IMG/VR virus record: IMGVR_UViG_3300047333_000067
Location: 1 to 21,231 of that record
Length of the DNA: 21,231 nt
Direction: 5' to 3' (one strand)
Source: a virus
Shown here: piece by piece, positions 5,618 through 11,192 of the stretch
How positions within the stretch are numbered: position 1 is the first letter of the stretch
How the letters are laid out: each line of letters begins with the position of its first letter
Translations under genes and position numbers: made by a program
The notes under the pieces: generated by a model
Seen by the model: the letters and a program-made list of their open reading frames with translations, nothing else
Databases searched by the model: none
What the model was told of the DNA's origin: nothing

Positions 5618-5630
5618 CAACAACCCACAA

Positions 5631-5676
5631 TTTTATGCCAGAAACAGTCGAAACCGCAGCCCCGACAACTGCACCC
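5631..5676 (+). repeat. 46-bp direct repeat, copy 1
   Basis: This copy is identical, base for base, to 5706-5751. It begins with TTTT just before ATG 5635 and encodes the first 14 residues of the scaffold gene (MPETVETAAPTTAP). The last two bases (CC) also belong to the inverted coat-derived segment that follows, a 2-bp microhomology at the junction. Confidence 0.97.
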
Positions 5677-6843
5677 ACCAGCTTATTCAGCAGGATGCGC
5701 AGGATTTTTATGCCAGAAACAGTCGAAACCGCAGCCCCGACAACTGCACCCGCAGTAGATGCAGCACCGATCATTCCGCGCGATCCCCAAGGCTACGCCA
5801 GATGGCGCAACGGGGAAACGCCGGAGCCGAAAACTGACGCCCCGGCAGCGTCGTCCGCGTCCGGCGATGAGCCGGGCGATAAAACCGCCCCCGCCTCGGA
5901 AGCGGGTAAACCCAAGCAGGCAGAAACACGCCCGCCAGCAGCGCGCGGCAAAGCGGAAACGCGTCTCGCCGAGCTGCTCGCGGATATCAAAGGCACGGGC
6001 TATACGCCCGCCGAGCTAAAGACCCTCCGTAAGGAAGCCGCCGCCGCTCCCCCCGCGAAAACAGACGCACCACCGGCCTCGTCCGCCGCGCCAAAGGAGC
6101 AGCCCAAAGAGCAGCCGAAAGCGATCACCGCGCCCACAAAGCCCGACTTCAAAAATTGGACGGGAACGTGGGATGAGCGCGAGGCCGCCATCGAGAAGTG
6201 GAACGACGAAAACGCGGCATACCAGGCCGCCAAAGCCGTTCAGGATTATCGCATCTCGGAGGCGCGCGCGGCGATGGAGAAATCCACCGCGGCTAAAGTG
6301 GGCGAAGCGCAGACGCGCTACGGCCAGCACGCCGGCGCGACCATCGTGGAGACGGCGCGCGCGCTCGGTTTCGGCACGCCAGAGATGGCCGCCGCTGCGC
6401 AGATCCCCGGCCCCATCCAGGCAATCATCGACCAGTCATCCGTGATGGTCGATCTGCTGTATGTGCTGGGCGAGAAGCCGGACGAGTTGACGGCGTTTAT
6501 CGCGCTCGCCAAGTCGGACCCCGGCGCAGCCATCCGCAAGCTCGTATTCCTCGAAAGCGGTGTGATCGCGGAGCTGGCGAAAGGCGCGAAGTCGCCGGCT
6601 GCCGGCGAACCCGCGGCGCCCGCGGCAGAGCGTGCTTCAGACGGAAAGTTTCTACCTGCTAAACCCAAGGCATCGCAGGCGCCCGCGCCGGCCATCGAGG
6701 TCGGAGGCCATGGAGCCCCGCCGCTCGATCCGGTCGAGGCGACCTCGCGATCGGCAAGCGCCCCCGGCGCGCAGCCGAAAGAAGTCACTGCCTTTTTCCG
6801 CGCGGCAAACGCGCGCGATCTGGCGCGGCGACAAGGACGATAA
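5635..6843 (+). CDS. Scaffolding protein (P22 gp8-position), with duplicated N-terminus
   Basis: The 402-residue Ala/Pro/Glu/Lys-rich, low-complexity protein lies between portal and coat, where P22-like phages encode the scaffold that templates the procapsid and leaves before DNA entry. Residues 1-14 (MPETVETAAPTTAP) recur exactly at 26-39, because the 5' end carries a 75-bp in-frame insertion. Residues 40-170 look disordered. Helical stretches follow (WDEREAAIEKWNDENAAYQA, IVETARALGF, DLLYVLGEKPDELTAFIALA). A basic end (EVTAFFRAANARDLARRQGR) could contact coat, as the basic C-terminus of P22 scaffold does. Two identical ATG contexts exist. ATG 5635 lacks a ribosome-binding site, while ATG 5710 has AGGA at 5701-5704, so a 377-residue product from 5710 is equally plausible. 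Function is assigned from position and composition. Confidence 0.75.
   Translation: MPETVETAAPTTAPTSLFSRMRRIFMPETVETAAPTTAPAVDAAPIIPRDPQGYARWRNGETPEPKTDAPAASSASGDEPGDKTAPASEAGKPKQAETRPPAARGKAETRLAELLADIKGTGYTPAELKTLRKEAAAAPPAKTDAPPASSAAPKEQPKEQPKAITAPTKPDFKNWTGTWDEREAAIEKWNDENAAYQAAKAVQDYRISEARAAMEKSTAAKVGEAQTRYGQHAGATIVETARALGFGTPEMAAAAQIPGPIQAIIDQSSVMVDLLYVLGEKPDELTAFIALAKSDPGAAIRKLVFLESGVIAELAKGAKSPAAGEPAAPAAERASDGKFLPAKPKASQAPAPAIEVGGHGAPPLDPVEATSRSASAPGAQPKEVTAFFRAANARDLARRQGR
5675..5705 (-). repeat. 31-bp inverted copy of the 5' part of the coat gene
   Basis: The reverse complement of these 31 bases equals 6896-6926 in the coat gene, where it encodes ILRILLNKLV (residues 15-24). Here, in the scaffold frame, it is read on the opposite strand as TSLFSRMRRI. 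It sits exactly between the two 46-bp direct repeats and is the only unexplained sequence between them. The codon boundaries of the two readings coincide. Confidence 0.97.
5701..5704 (+). promoter_or_regulatory. Ribosome-binding site candidate supplied by the inserted segment
   Basis: AGGA is followed by five T residues and then ATG 5710, an acceptable Shine-Dalgarno spacing. The bases come from the inverted coat-derived insert. The equivalent position before ATG 5635 (CAACCCACAATTTT) has no purine-rich site, so the insert may have moved or strengthened the scaffold start. This bears directly on which ATG is used. Confidence 0.4.
5706..5751 (+). repeat. 46-bp direct repeat, copy 2
   Basis: Second perfect copy of 5631-5676, offset by 75 bases (25 codons), so the frame is kept. 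Sequence after 5751 continues the ordinary scaffold gene (AVDAAPIIPRD). The simplest reading is that copy 2 is the original gene start, and that copy 1 together with the inverted insert arose by one event. Confidence 0.97.
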
Positions 6844-6853
6844 CGCAACGTAA

Positions 6854-8086
6854 ATGGCTAATCAATTTCTCAACACCAACTGGGTGTCGATGGAGATCCT
6901 GCGCATCCTGCTGAATAAGCTGGTGGTCGCGGAGTACTTCAATCGCTCCTGGGAGAAGGACTTCGAAAAAGAGTTCGCCCCCGGCAGCAACGTAACGGTC
7001 AAATTCCCCTGGCGCCCGTTCGTCACGGACGGCATGGGCTACAACCCGCAAGGGATCGCCCGCATCTCGACCACTGTGTCACTCGACCAGTGGCTGCAAA
7101 TCGCGTTCGAGTGGGACGACTACGAGAAGGCCGTCAAGGTCGAGCGTAGCGAAGAAGAGCTGCGCGAGAACTATTGGGACCCCTGCGCCGCAGCGTTCGC
7201 CCAAGAGATCGATTCGCGCTGCGCCAATTTCGCTTACACGAACGCATCCAACCTGGTGGGCGTGCTCGGCACCGACCCGACCAGCGTCTCGACTTACTAC
7301 GGCGCGCGCCGCATCCTGATGCAGGAAGCCTGCCCGCCCGGCAAGAAGTGCGCGCTCATCTCCAGCTCGATGATGTCCTCGCTGGGATCGAACATCACCA
7401 CGGTGTTTCACCCCGACGATGAGATCACGCGCATGTGGAAGGAAGGCTCGATCGGCAAGCTGGCCGGGTTCAGCTTTTTCGAGTCGCAGTCTCTCTACTC
7501 GCAGACCGCTGGCACCTGGGCGTCGACCGTCACGGTCACCGGCGCCAACCAATCCGGCGCGTCGATCATCATCACCGGCACCAACGGCGACACCATCAAC
7601 GCCGGCGACAAGTACTCCATCGCCAACGTCAACGCTGTCAACCCGCAGACCCGCCGCTCGGCCGGCCCGCTGACCGCGCGGCCGTTCACTGTCGTGCAGA
7701 ATTACACGCTCGACGGCAACCCCGACACCATCTCGTTCCTGCCGCCCATCTACGGGCCTGGCTCGCCCTACCAGAACGTCGACGCGCTACCCGTCAATGG
7801 CGCCGCGCTCACGCTCTGGCCCGGTACCGCCAGCCCCAACGGCAAGACCGGCACTGTCGGCCTGGCCCTGTCCAAGTATGCGTTCTCGCTGATCGGCGGC
7901 AAGCTGTACGTGCCGAAATCGGTGGAGAGCGCCGGCCAGGCGCAGGACCCCGACTCCGGCATCGCCATCCGCAAGGTGGAGGCGTGGGACCCGGTGCGCT
8001 CGATGGAAGTCAAGCGCATGGACGGACTACTGGGCTTCGGCAATCTCTACCAGGCGAACGGCGCCTGCTGCATCGTCGGCCAGTAA
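6854..8086 (+). CDS. Major capsid (coat) protein, P22 gp5-like
   Basis: The 410-residue product follows the scaffold gene and has the P22-coat family pattern: a helical N-arm (SMEILRILLNKLVVAEYFNR), NVTVKFPWRPFVTDG, a segment DQWLQIAFEWDDYEKAVKVE, and SSSMMSSLGSNITTVF before a beta-rich region. Residues of about 224-325 form a Thr/Gly/Asn-rich beta insertion at the place where P22 coat carries its I-domain (about 223-345 there). The C-terminal part (GGKLYVPKSVESAGQAQDPD) returns to the HK97-like core. Length is near the 430 of P22. ATG 6854 lies 10 bases after the scaffold stop with only a weak upstream GGACGA. Codons 15-24 match the inverted insert in the scaffold gene. Confidence 0.9.
   Translation: MANQFLNTNWVSMEILRILLNKLVVAEYFNRSWEKDFEKEFAPGSNVTVKFPWRPFVTDGMGYNPQGIARISTTVSLDQWLQIAFEWDDYEKAVKVERSEEELRENYWDPCAAAFAQEIDSRCANFAYTNASNLVGVLGTDPTSVSTYYGARRILMQEACPPGKKCALISSSMMSSLGSNITTVFHPDDEITRMWKEGSIGKLAGFSFFESQSLYSQTAGTWASTVTVTGANQSGASIIITGTNGDTINAGDKYSIANVNAVNPQTRRSAGPLTARPFTVVQNYTLDGNPDTISFLPPIYGPGSPYQNVDALPVNGAALTLWPGTASPNGKTGTVGLALSKYAFSLIGGKLYVPKSVESAGQAQDPDSGIAIRKVEAWDPVRSMEVKRMDGLLGFGNLYQANGACCIVGQ
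6896..6926 (+). repeat. Source copy of the 31-bp segment found inverted at 5675-5705
   Basis: This lies inside the coat gene (residues 15-24, ILRILLNKLV). Because the residues fit a helical N-arm typical of the coat family, this is probably the original and 5675-5705 the derived copy. The two copies form an inverted repeat pair enclosing about 1.2 kb that includes nearly the whole scaffold gene and the coat start. Confidence 0.95.
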
Positions 8087-9641: not shown

Positions 9642-10331
9642 ATGCTGGTCAGCGATATCTGCAACTACGCGCTCGAACACATCAACGCGTATGAACCCGG
9701 CGAGACGCCCAACACGAACGATCAGACGCTCGCGTTGTTCTGGGCGAATCTGACGCTCGACTCGCTGAGCGCCAAGAAGCTGTCACCGCTCGGCCTGCTG
9801 ACTGCCACGTACGCGCTCACGGGCGCGGCCAGCTACACGTACGGCACGGGCGAGACGTGGAACGGCGCGCGGCCGATGAAAATCAAGAGCGCGTCTGTCA
9901 CCGCGGCGAACGGCACCCAGAAGGAAGTCAAGATCTCGTCGGCCGAAGAGTTCCGCGGCATCGCGGATCTGACGCGGACCGGGATCTTCGTCGAGAATTT
10001 GTTCTGGGACATGGGCTATCCCACGGGCGTGATCTACGTGACGCCCATGCCGAGCGCCGGCAACATGCTGCTGCAGACCTATCAGCAGATTCTCAACTTT
10101 GTGAACCTCACGGACACGGTGAACCTCGCGCCCGGCTTCCCGGAGTGCGTGATCGTGATCCTGGCGCGCAAGCTATGCAGGCCGTTCGGCCGCCCCGTAC
10201 CGGACGGACTCGACGAAGATGTGGTGGACGCGCTCTCGACCATTGCAGACCTGCAGGCGTCCTGTCTTGGCTCGTCGATGCCCGTGGGGCCGCAGGCCGC
10301 GCCGGCGCCGCCGGCACCGAAGGAAGATTAA
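9642..10331 (+). CDS. Head completion / tail accessory factor, P22 gp4-like (copy 1)
   Basis: The 229-residue product begins LVSDICNYALEHINAYEPGE, then LDSLSAKKL, the helical start typical of the gp4 family that docks under the portal after packaging. Further features are RPMKIKSASV, VENLFWDMGYPTGVIYVTP and LAPGFPECVIVILARKLCRP, matching the later part of the same family. The last 25 residues are Pro/Ala-rich. In P22, gp4 joins the portal to the tail and needle. The next gene is a second member of the family, so the phage appears to use two connector-like proteins. Assignment rests on residue pattern and on its place after coat. Confidence 0.75.
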   Translation: MLVSDICNYALEHINAYEPGETPNTNDQTLALFWANLTLDSLSAKKLSPLGLLTATYALTGAASYTYGTGETWNGARPMKIKSASVTAANGTQKEVKISSAEEFRGIADLTRTGIFVENLFWDMGYPTGVIYVTPMPSAGNMLLQTYQQILNFVNLTDTVNLAPGFPECVIVILARKLCRPFGRPVPDGLDEDVVDALSTIADLQASCLGSSMPVGPQAAPAPPAPKED

Positions 10332-11192
10332 GTGGCACCCACGCTGCCCCTCCCCTTCACCGGCTCGTGGCTCGTCTCCGACCTCGTGTACCGCGCGCTG
10401 CGCGCATCGAACGTCGTCAAACGCGCGCAGGGCGTCCCCAGCAGCTCGCAATACCAGGAGGGGCTGACATTTCTCAACCAGATCGTGGACGAGCTGACCG
10501 CGCGCCGCCCGTTCGCGTGGGCCACCACGTTCACGCTCTACACGCTCACGCCCAACCACCAGCCACACTTGCTGGGCCCGGGACTGAACGCGCCCGACTT
10601 CGGCACGCCCGTCGTGAACGGCGTTTACCAGCCGCGCCCCATGCACATCGAAAGCGCGGAGCTGGTGCTCACTGGCTTTGGCGCGCCGCAACCCGCGCCG
10701 GTACCGCCGGCGACGCCGGCCGGCGCGGTGAACACGAACGTCGATCTGCAGCTCAACATCCGCGATAGCGCCTGGTGGGCGGCGAACAGCGTGAAGGGCA
10801 TTTCTACCAACGTGCCCACCGATCTCTACCCCGAGTACGACTGGGATTCGCTGGCGCTGTGGCTGTGGTGCATCCCGAGCTATCCGTATGGGCTGCGCCT
10901 CGAAACGTGGGCGGGACTGACTCAGTTCCAGTCGATCAGGGTCAAATTTTCCGCGCCCCCAGGCTATTTCAATTACCTCGCGTTCAAGCTCGCGCTGGCG
11001 CTCAACGATGCATACCCGGAGGTCCCCATGCCGGAAGGCCTGGGCGGCCTATTTCGCGCGGCGGAAAAGGCGGTCCTGACGCCCAACTTCAAGTCGCCGC
11101 GTTGCTCGTCGGCCGACTGGGGCACGCGCGGGCAGTCGCCGCGCGCGGACTTCAATTACATGACCGGCACTCTCCCCAACTACCGCGGCTAA
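10332..11192 (+). CDS. Head completion / tail accessory factor, gp4-like (copy 2)
   Basis: The start is GTG 10332, preceded by AGGA at 10321-10324 and abutting the TAA of copy 1. The 286-residue product begins with an N-terminal block parallel to copy 1 (LVSDLVYRALRASNVV, then LNQIVDELTARRPF). It also shares RPMHIESAEL with RPMKIKSASV, and PPGYFNYLAFKLALALNDAYP with the late helix of copy 1. An 85-residue insertion with Pro/Ala-rich linkers separates the blocks. It looks like a divergent tandem duplicate forming a second connector or stopper ring. Which copy is the functional equivalent of P22 gp4 cannot be told from sequence. Confidence 0.65.
   Translation: MAPTLPLPFTGSWLVSDLVYRALRASNVVKRAQGVPSSSQYQEGLTFLNQIVDELTARRPFAWATTFTLYTLTPNHQPHLLGPGLNAPDFGTPVVNGVYQPRPMHIESAELVLTGFGAPQPAPVPPATPAGAVNTNVDLQLNIRDSAWWAANSVKGISTNVPTDLYPEYDWDSLALWLWCIPSYPYGLRLETWAGLTQFQSIRVKFSAPPGYFNYLAFKLALALNDAYPEVPMPEGLGGLFRAAEKAVLTPNFKSPRCSSADWGTRGQSPRADFNYMTGTLPNYRG

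Follow-up and report, generated by a model that had tools for sequence, protein, structure and literature searches.

The scaffold gene in this virus fragment opens with a 75-bp insertion built entirely from the phage's own sequence, in which two perfect direct repeats bracket an inverted piece of the nearby coat gene. We regard a natural paired template-switch mutation, arising during phage genome replication or fork repair, as its probable origin, and a natural event overall, counting also a break with filler capture, as somewhat likelier again. Both the occurrence of the event in vivo and its replication route are what we infer.

Layout and genome setting of the insertion

The window (the whole stretch of DNA analyzed, 21,231 bp) is a linear, incomplete IMG/VR virus fragment from a metagenome assembly. 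A base-by-base check bears out the layout described in the initial annotation (Table 1). The two copies of the direct repeat are identical at 46/46 bp, and the stretch 5675-5705 is the exact reverse complement of coat gene sequence at 31/31 bp, with the bases CC common to the end of the first repeat and to the inverted match. The net insert of 75 bp consists of 29 coat-templated and 46 re-copied bases, which leaves 0 untemplated bases. The overlap at the junctions is 2 bp (CC) and 0 bp, and 1190 nt separate the inverted arms. As had also been claimed, and correctly to the base, the insert preserves the frame and adds 25 residues, 14 of them repeated (MPETVETAAPTTAP) and the others reading TSLFSRMRRIF, with no stop codon.

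Table 1. Coordinates of the insertion, its source, and the genes concerned
Feature	Position	Strand	Remarks
First copy of the 46-bp repeat	5631..5676	+	Preceded by the native leader; contains ATG1 (5635)
29-bp filler	5677..5705	+	Reverse complement of coat 6896-6924; match is 31 bp including CC at 5675-5676
Second, re-copied 46-bp repeat	5706..5751	+	Contains ATG2 (5710), the position of the relatives' start codon
Source of the inverted filler	6896..6926	-	Within the intact coat gene
Complete ancestral scaffold ORF	5710..6843	+	377 aa from ATG2; 402 aa from ATG1 (5635)
Coat gene	6854-8086		PF11651

The repeat and the inverted match are far beyond chance. Apart from the 46-bp pair, no direct repeat in the window reaches 30 bp, and apart from the 31-bp pair, no inverted repeat reaches 20 bp. 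Once the 75 bp are removed, the longest exact matches in the window fall to 16 bp (direct) and 18 bp (inverted), and the maxima in 100 order-3 Markov sequences were 20 and 24 bp.

The gene set comprises a terminase (PF04466), a P22-like portal (PF16510), the scaffold, a P22-type coat, and connector genes, with the portal (E = 3.7e-107) preceding the scaffold and the coat (E = 2.2e-24) coming after it. The scaffold protein itself matched no family in protein-family searches, and a sequence-profile search of solved structures returned chance-level matches only. Six of 16 aligned homologues matched phrog_8865 ("head scaffolding protein"). A first Foldseek search with the scaffold model found nothing significant; a second look after it ranked four P22 scaffold entries at the top for the predicted fold, the best having a Z score of 8.4 and an rmsd of 3.0 over 85 residues (model residues 211-312), values that are middling for a helical protein. 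By its position between portal and coat and its P22 gp8-like predicted fold, the insert-bearing gene appears to encode a P22-type head scaffolding protein. No known RNA family was matched in the window. Farther downstream, the adjacent genes at 9642-10331 and 10332-11192 both match phrog_12985 (E = 8e-22 and 1.5e-9), the former also weakly matching PF24175, and, judging from these matches, the pair probably arose by tandem duplication of a gene for an adaptor-like protein.

Relatives and the state of the scaffold gene

Relatives were recovered by coat and portal queries, while scaffold-based searches of viral contigs and of the phage collection, like a coat-based search of prokaryote genomes, returned none. 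The coat search gave 38 viral loci; a scaffold start could be read in 32 of the related loci, representing 21 distinct N-termini, and the insert is absent from every one of these 32 viral contigs, in keeping with the recent origin proposed in the initial annotation. In these relatives, 24 to 41 residues (27 to 29 in the ten nearest) lie between the start and a conserved YAxWR-like motif (in the most distant members, its counterpart); the corresponding distance in the window is 28 residues from ATG2 and 53 from ATG1. The relatives' profile aligns end to end from ATG2, ATG1 fitting only a 2.6-bit fragment, and in the multiple alignment the extra residues are confined to the window sequence. The leader of the first copy is native (5625-5650 is matched at 88% by locus L006), so that the ancestral order was native leader, one copy, and native downstream sequence. 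These comparisons indicate that the relatives' scaffold start corresponds to the second ATG of the window and that the insert is derived. We rejected a reading in which the second copy holds the ancestral leader, which had been prompted by the occurrence of GATTTTT-ATG in L007 and L008 as well, because the first copy's leader resembles those of L006 and L010 and because the GAT comes from the coat piece.

No similar scar was found in 43 related loci. Scanning IMG/VR for exact DNA matches to the repeat, the empty-site junction, and the occupied junction yielded nothing, a result that does not in itself demonstrate absence. The repeat and inverted copies show 0 differences in 77 comparable bases, corresponding to a divergence below about 3.8% (95%); the coat DNA of the nearest relatives differs by 21 to 23%, and by 36 to 43% at third positions. 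On these sequence comparisons, the event would be young or would have taken place in vitro.

The spacer between portal and scaffold ranges from 10 nt to more than 2 kb in the relatives (L003 to L040) and occupies 5618-5634 in the window, suggesting that this boundary naturally tolerates insertions. As a separate observation, some of these spacers are long enough for extra genes, and the boundary looks like an insertion hot spot in the phage group. Another observation concerns L010, which carries three copies of an intergenic element of about 110 bp (384-497, 6334-6448, and 6450-6563) that begins with GTTTCAATCCACGCCACATTTGCATGTGGCGA and continues with a conserved GCGCGGTGTAATCCGGGCCGCAAGGCCTAGA. 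The site L025:2089-2104 was grouped with those of this element. The GTTTCAATCCACGCCACATTTGCATGTGGCGA start presumably resembles a type I-C CRISPR repeat, and there was no Rfam match in L010.

The initial annotation had seen in the insertion either a structural mutation in an essential gene or a defect in the sequence, yet the gene is undamaged. Since the start codon lies within the 46 bp that were copied again, the whole ancestral ORF survives from 5710 with its own ATG, whatever the frame of the insert. The frame is indeed kept, as had been claimed, but keeping it was not needed, and random 29-mers are stop-free in 85% of cases. Being in frame and free of stops, the insert does open a 402-aa version from ATG1. 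In the predicted structure of this version, residues 11-44 have a pLDDT below 50, and a confidently predicted fold is reached only much farther along the chain, near residue 170, so that the 25 extra residues, if translated, would fall in a predicted disordered tail. The N-terminal 57 residues of the P22 scaffold make up an N-loop that lies apart from its base and column domains (PMC12005531).

The insert has also created an AGGA 5 nt before ATG2 (AGGA-TTTTT-ATG), and no Shine-Dalgarno-like site was found at ATG1 or at the native scaffold starts of the closest relatives. Within the window, such sites are present at several other gene starts (2033, 8160, 10332, and 20356), and none that is convincing occurs at those of the portal (3362), the native scaffold (5635), or the coat (6854). 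A fuller scenario, in which a natural inter-strand switch over about 1.2 kb with return was fixed in a phage lineage and the doubled start possibly yields scaffolds of 402 and 377 aa, the shorter via the Shine-Dalgarno-like AGGA from antisense coat sequence, seems to us doubtful.

A probable paired template switch and competing explanations

In the mechanism that we favor, rightward synthesis would have copied the scaffold start up to 5676, where the nascent 3' end left its template. The 2-bp CC would then have primed on the opposite strand at 6926 in the coat gene, some 1.2 kb ahead, and 29 bases would have been copied backwards to 6896 before synthesis resumed on the original template at 5631, a position 46 bases short of the exit. 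Copying these 46 bases again would give the repeat, the inverted filler, and the repeat in the order seen. The mirror course is equally compatible: leftward synthesis would exit at 5631, copy the coat gene from 6896 to 6926, and return at 5676. In four-point notation, the rightward order is 4-1-3-2 (4 = 5631, 1 = 5676, 3 = 6896, and 2 = 6926), and since point 2 lies ahead of point 1, an inter-strand switch is needed by the logic of PMC7954356; the leftward order (3-2-4-1) could instead be intra-strand. Because the first jump would be primed by 2 bp and the return by 0, rightward synthesis starts more easily, which is weak evidence for that direction. The scar would have survived because the re-copied stretch holds the start codon and a complete scaffold gene remains.

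The template-switch layout proposed in the initial annotation gains support from the complete templating and from the absence of the insert in relatives. An approximate gene list puts at only about 7% the share of positions where such an insert would leave every ORF complete, and the observed site is among them; this ORF-sparing placement is more in line with an event that passed selection than with a random one in vitro. The tolerance of the portal-scaffold boundary for insertions points the same way. Single-stranded DNA structure at the switch points gave z scores of 0.16 and -0.40 at the scaffold start and -2.22 at the coat source, and there was no clear signal of hairpins there. Counting against a natural switch are the lack of microhomology at the return junction, the linear and incomplete state of the contig, and the fact that the insert was found in no second, independent record.

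This last point, as far as the exact scans of IMG/VR go, would equally be expected of an in vitro chimera in which a strand-displacing or PCR polymerase made both jumps during whole-genome or library amplification and the product came to dominate local coverage. Amplification chimeras too favor nearby inverted joins: in multiple displacement amplification (MDA), 85% of them are inverted, most join sites less than 10 kb apart, and priming involves a few complementary bases (PMC1855051), so that the inverted source at 1.2 kb and the CC priming fit, as does the zero divergence between copies. However, the reported MDA chimeras join two segments once (PMC1855051), and those of T7 strand displacement almost always comprise exactly two alignments (PMC9484634), whereas here two jumps occurred within 31 bases and led back to the starting locus. 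The short reads of the MDA study (PMC1855051) had little power for three-part chimeras, and hence the argument from single joins is not decisive. In place of one inverted join with deletion of the intervening sequence, the window has two joins that lead back to the starting locus and leave a duplication, which lowers membership in the typical class while staying compatible with an unusual chimera. The ORF-sparing placement and the lack of any other chimeric sign in the contig also speak against an amplification product, which we consider unlikely but still the strongest competitor of a natural switch. An artefact of assembly alone, in which unrelated pieces were joined and no such molecule existed, could be suspected from the metagenomic source and from the capacity of repeats to mislead assemblers. 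It is nonetheless very unlikely, as is the assembly chimera envisaged in the initial annotation when taken as the sole cause: there are no N gaps, and the novel junctions share 2 and 0 bases, far below the usual k-mer overlap, so that reads containing them must have existed.

The initial annotation named the template switch among its origins but overlooked a natural staggered double-strand break, which gives the same layout. Filling in of 46-nt 5' overhangs on both sides, with capture of a 29-base coat fragment, predicts exactly a repeat, a filler, and a repeat with little junction homology (2 and 0 bp here) and leaves the orientation of the filler free. It requires an end-joining route of host or phage, however, and has to assume, ad hoc in each case, a stagger of 46 nt and a loose 29-nt fragment originating 1.2 kb away, which makes it improbable in our view. 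Least credible of all is a selected functional element, the antisense coat piece being kept for the AGGA, which would alter scaffold expression. The site does stand at ATG2 and is missing from ATG1 and from the closest relatives' native starts, but a random 29-mer of the contig gives an equally good one 15.5% of the time, and portal and coat also do without, so none is required. A mobile element was rejected, the filler being a plain piece of the coat gene with no ends of its own.

Comparison with known template-switch systems

The insertion clearly exemplifies a type of mutation that is already known and does not represent a new system. In the four-point model of Löytynoja and Goldman (PMC7954356), the segments L to 1, inverted 2 to 3, and 4 to R account for the whole change, as they do here. 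The middle fragment matches nearby sequence of the same genome in reverse complement over 31/31 bp, the flanks connect back to the original locus and leave no base unaccounted for (75 = 29 + 46), and the direction is given by 32 relatives with 21 distinct N-termini, none with the insert. Because point 4 comes before point 1, the stretch between them is present twice, and a point 2 located beyond point 1 implies an inter-strand switch; great-ape switches with point 4 before point 1 have been reported, in which the new duplex must be reopened (PMC7954356). That model differs in concerning short-range events in great-ape genomes, while the template here lies about 1.2 kb away in a phage.

Pairs of inverted switches have been inferred in Escherichia coli, where a lone inverted switch would be inviable and one fork is proposed to have exposed 1 to 2 kb of single-stranded DNA (PMC3161906). 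The window is alike in its two inverted switches and short junction homology and in the need of the second switch for viability, and by the same reasoning only a molecule that returned could presumably have been propagated; the E. coli events are large amplifications or inversions, whereas here the copied stretch measures 29 bases. Small inverted triplications in yeast and human (PMC13334657) share the direct-inverted-direct order and a switch followed by a re-copying return. In them the inverted part is copied from the very segment that is duplicated (mean lengths 148/160/148 bp), while that of the window is derived from another gene. Chimeras from MDA (PMC1855051) are likewise inverted, nearby, and primed by a few bases but are single two-segment joins with no return to the original site.

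If the event took place in vitro, it would be a warning that chimeras of three parts can find their way into reference viral contigs and give false protein extensions on translation. If it is natural, as we think probable, it would constitute a fully readable phage scar of a paired inter-strand switch, with all four points placed to within one or two bases, an intact source gene, and the direction of change fixed by relatives. It would also show a route by which such an error survives, in that the re-copied stretch carries the start codon.
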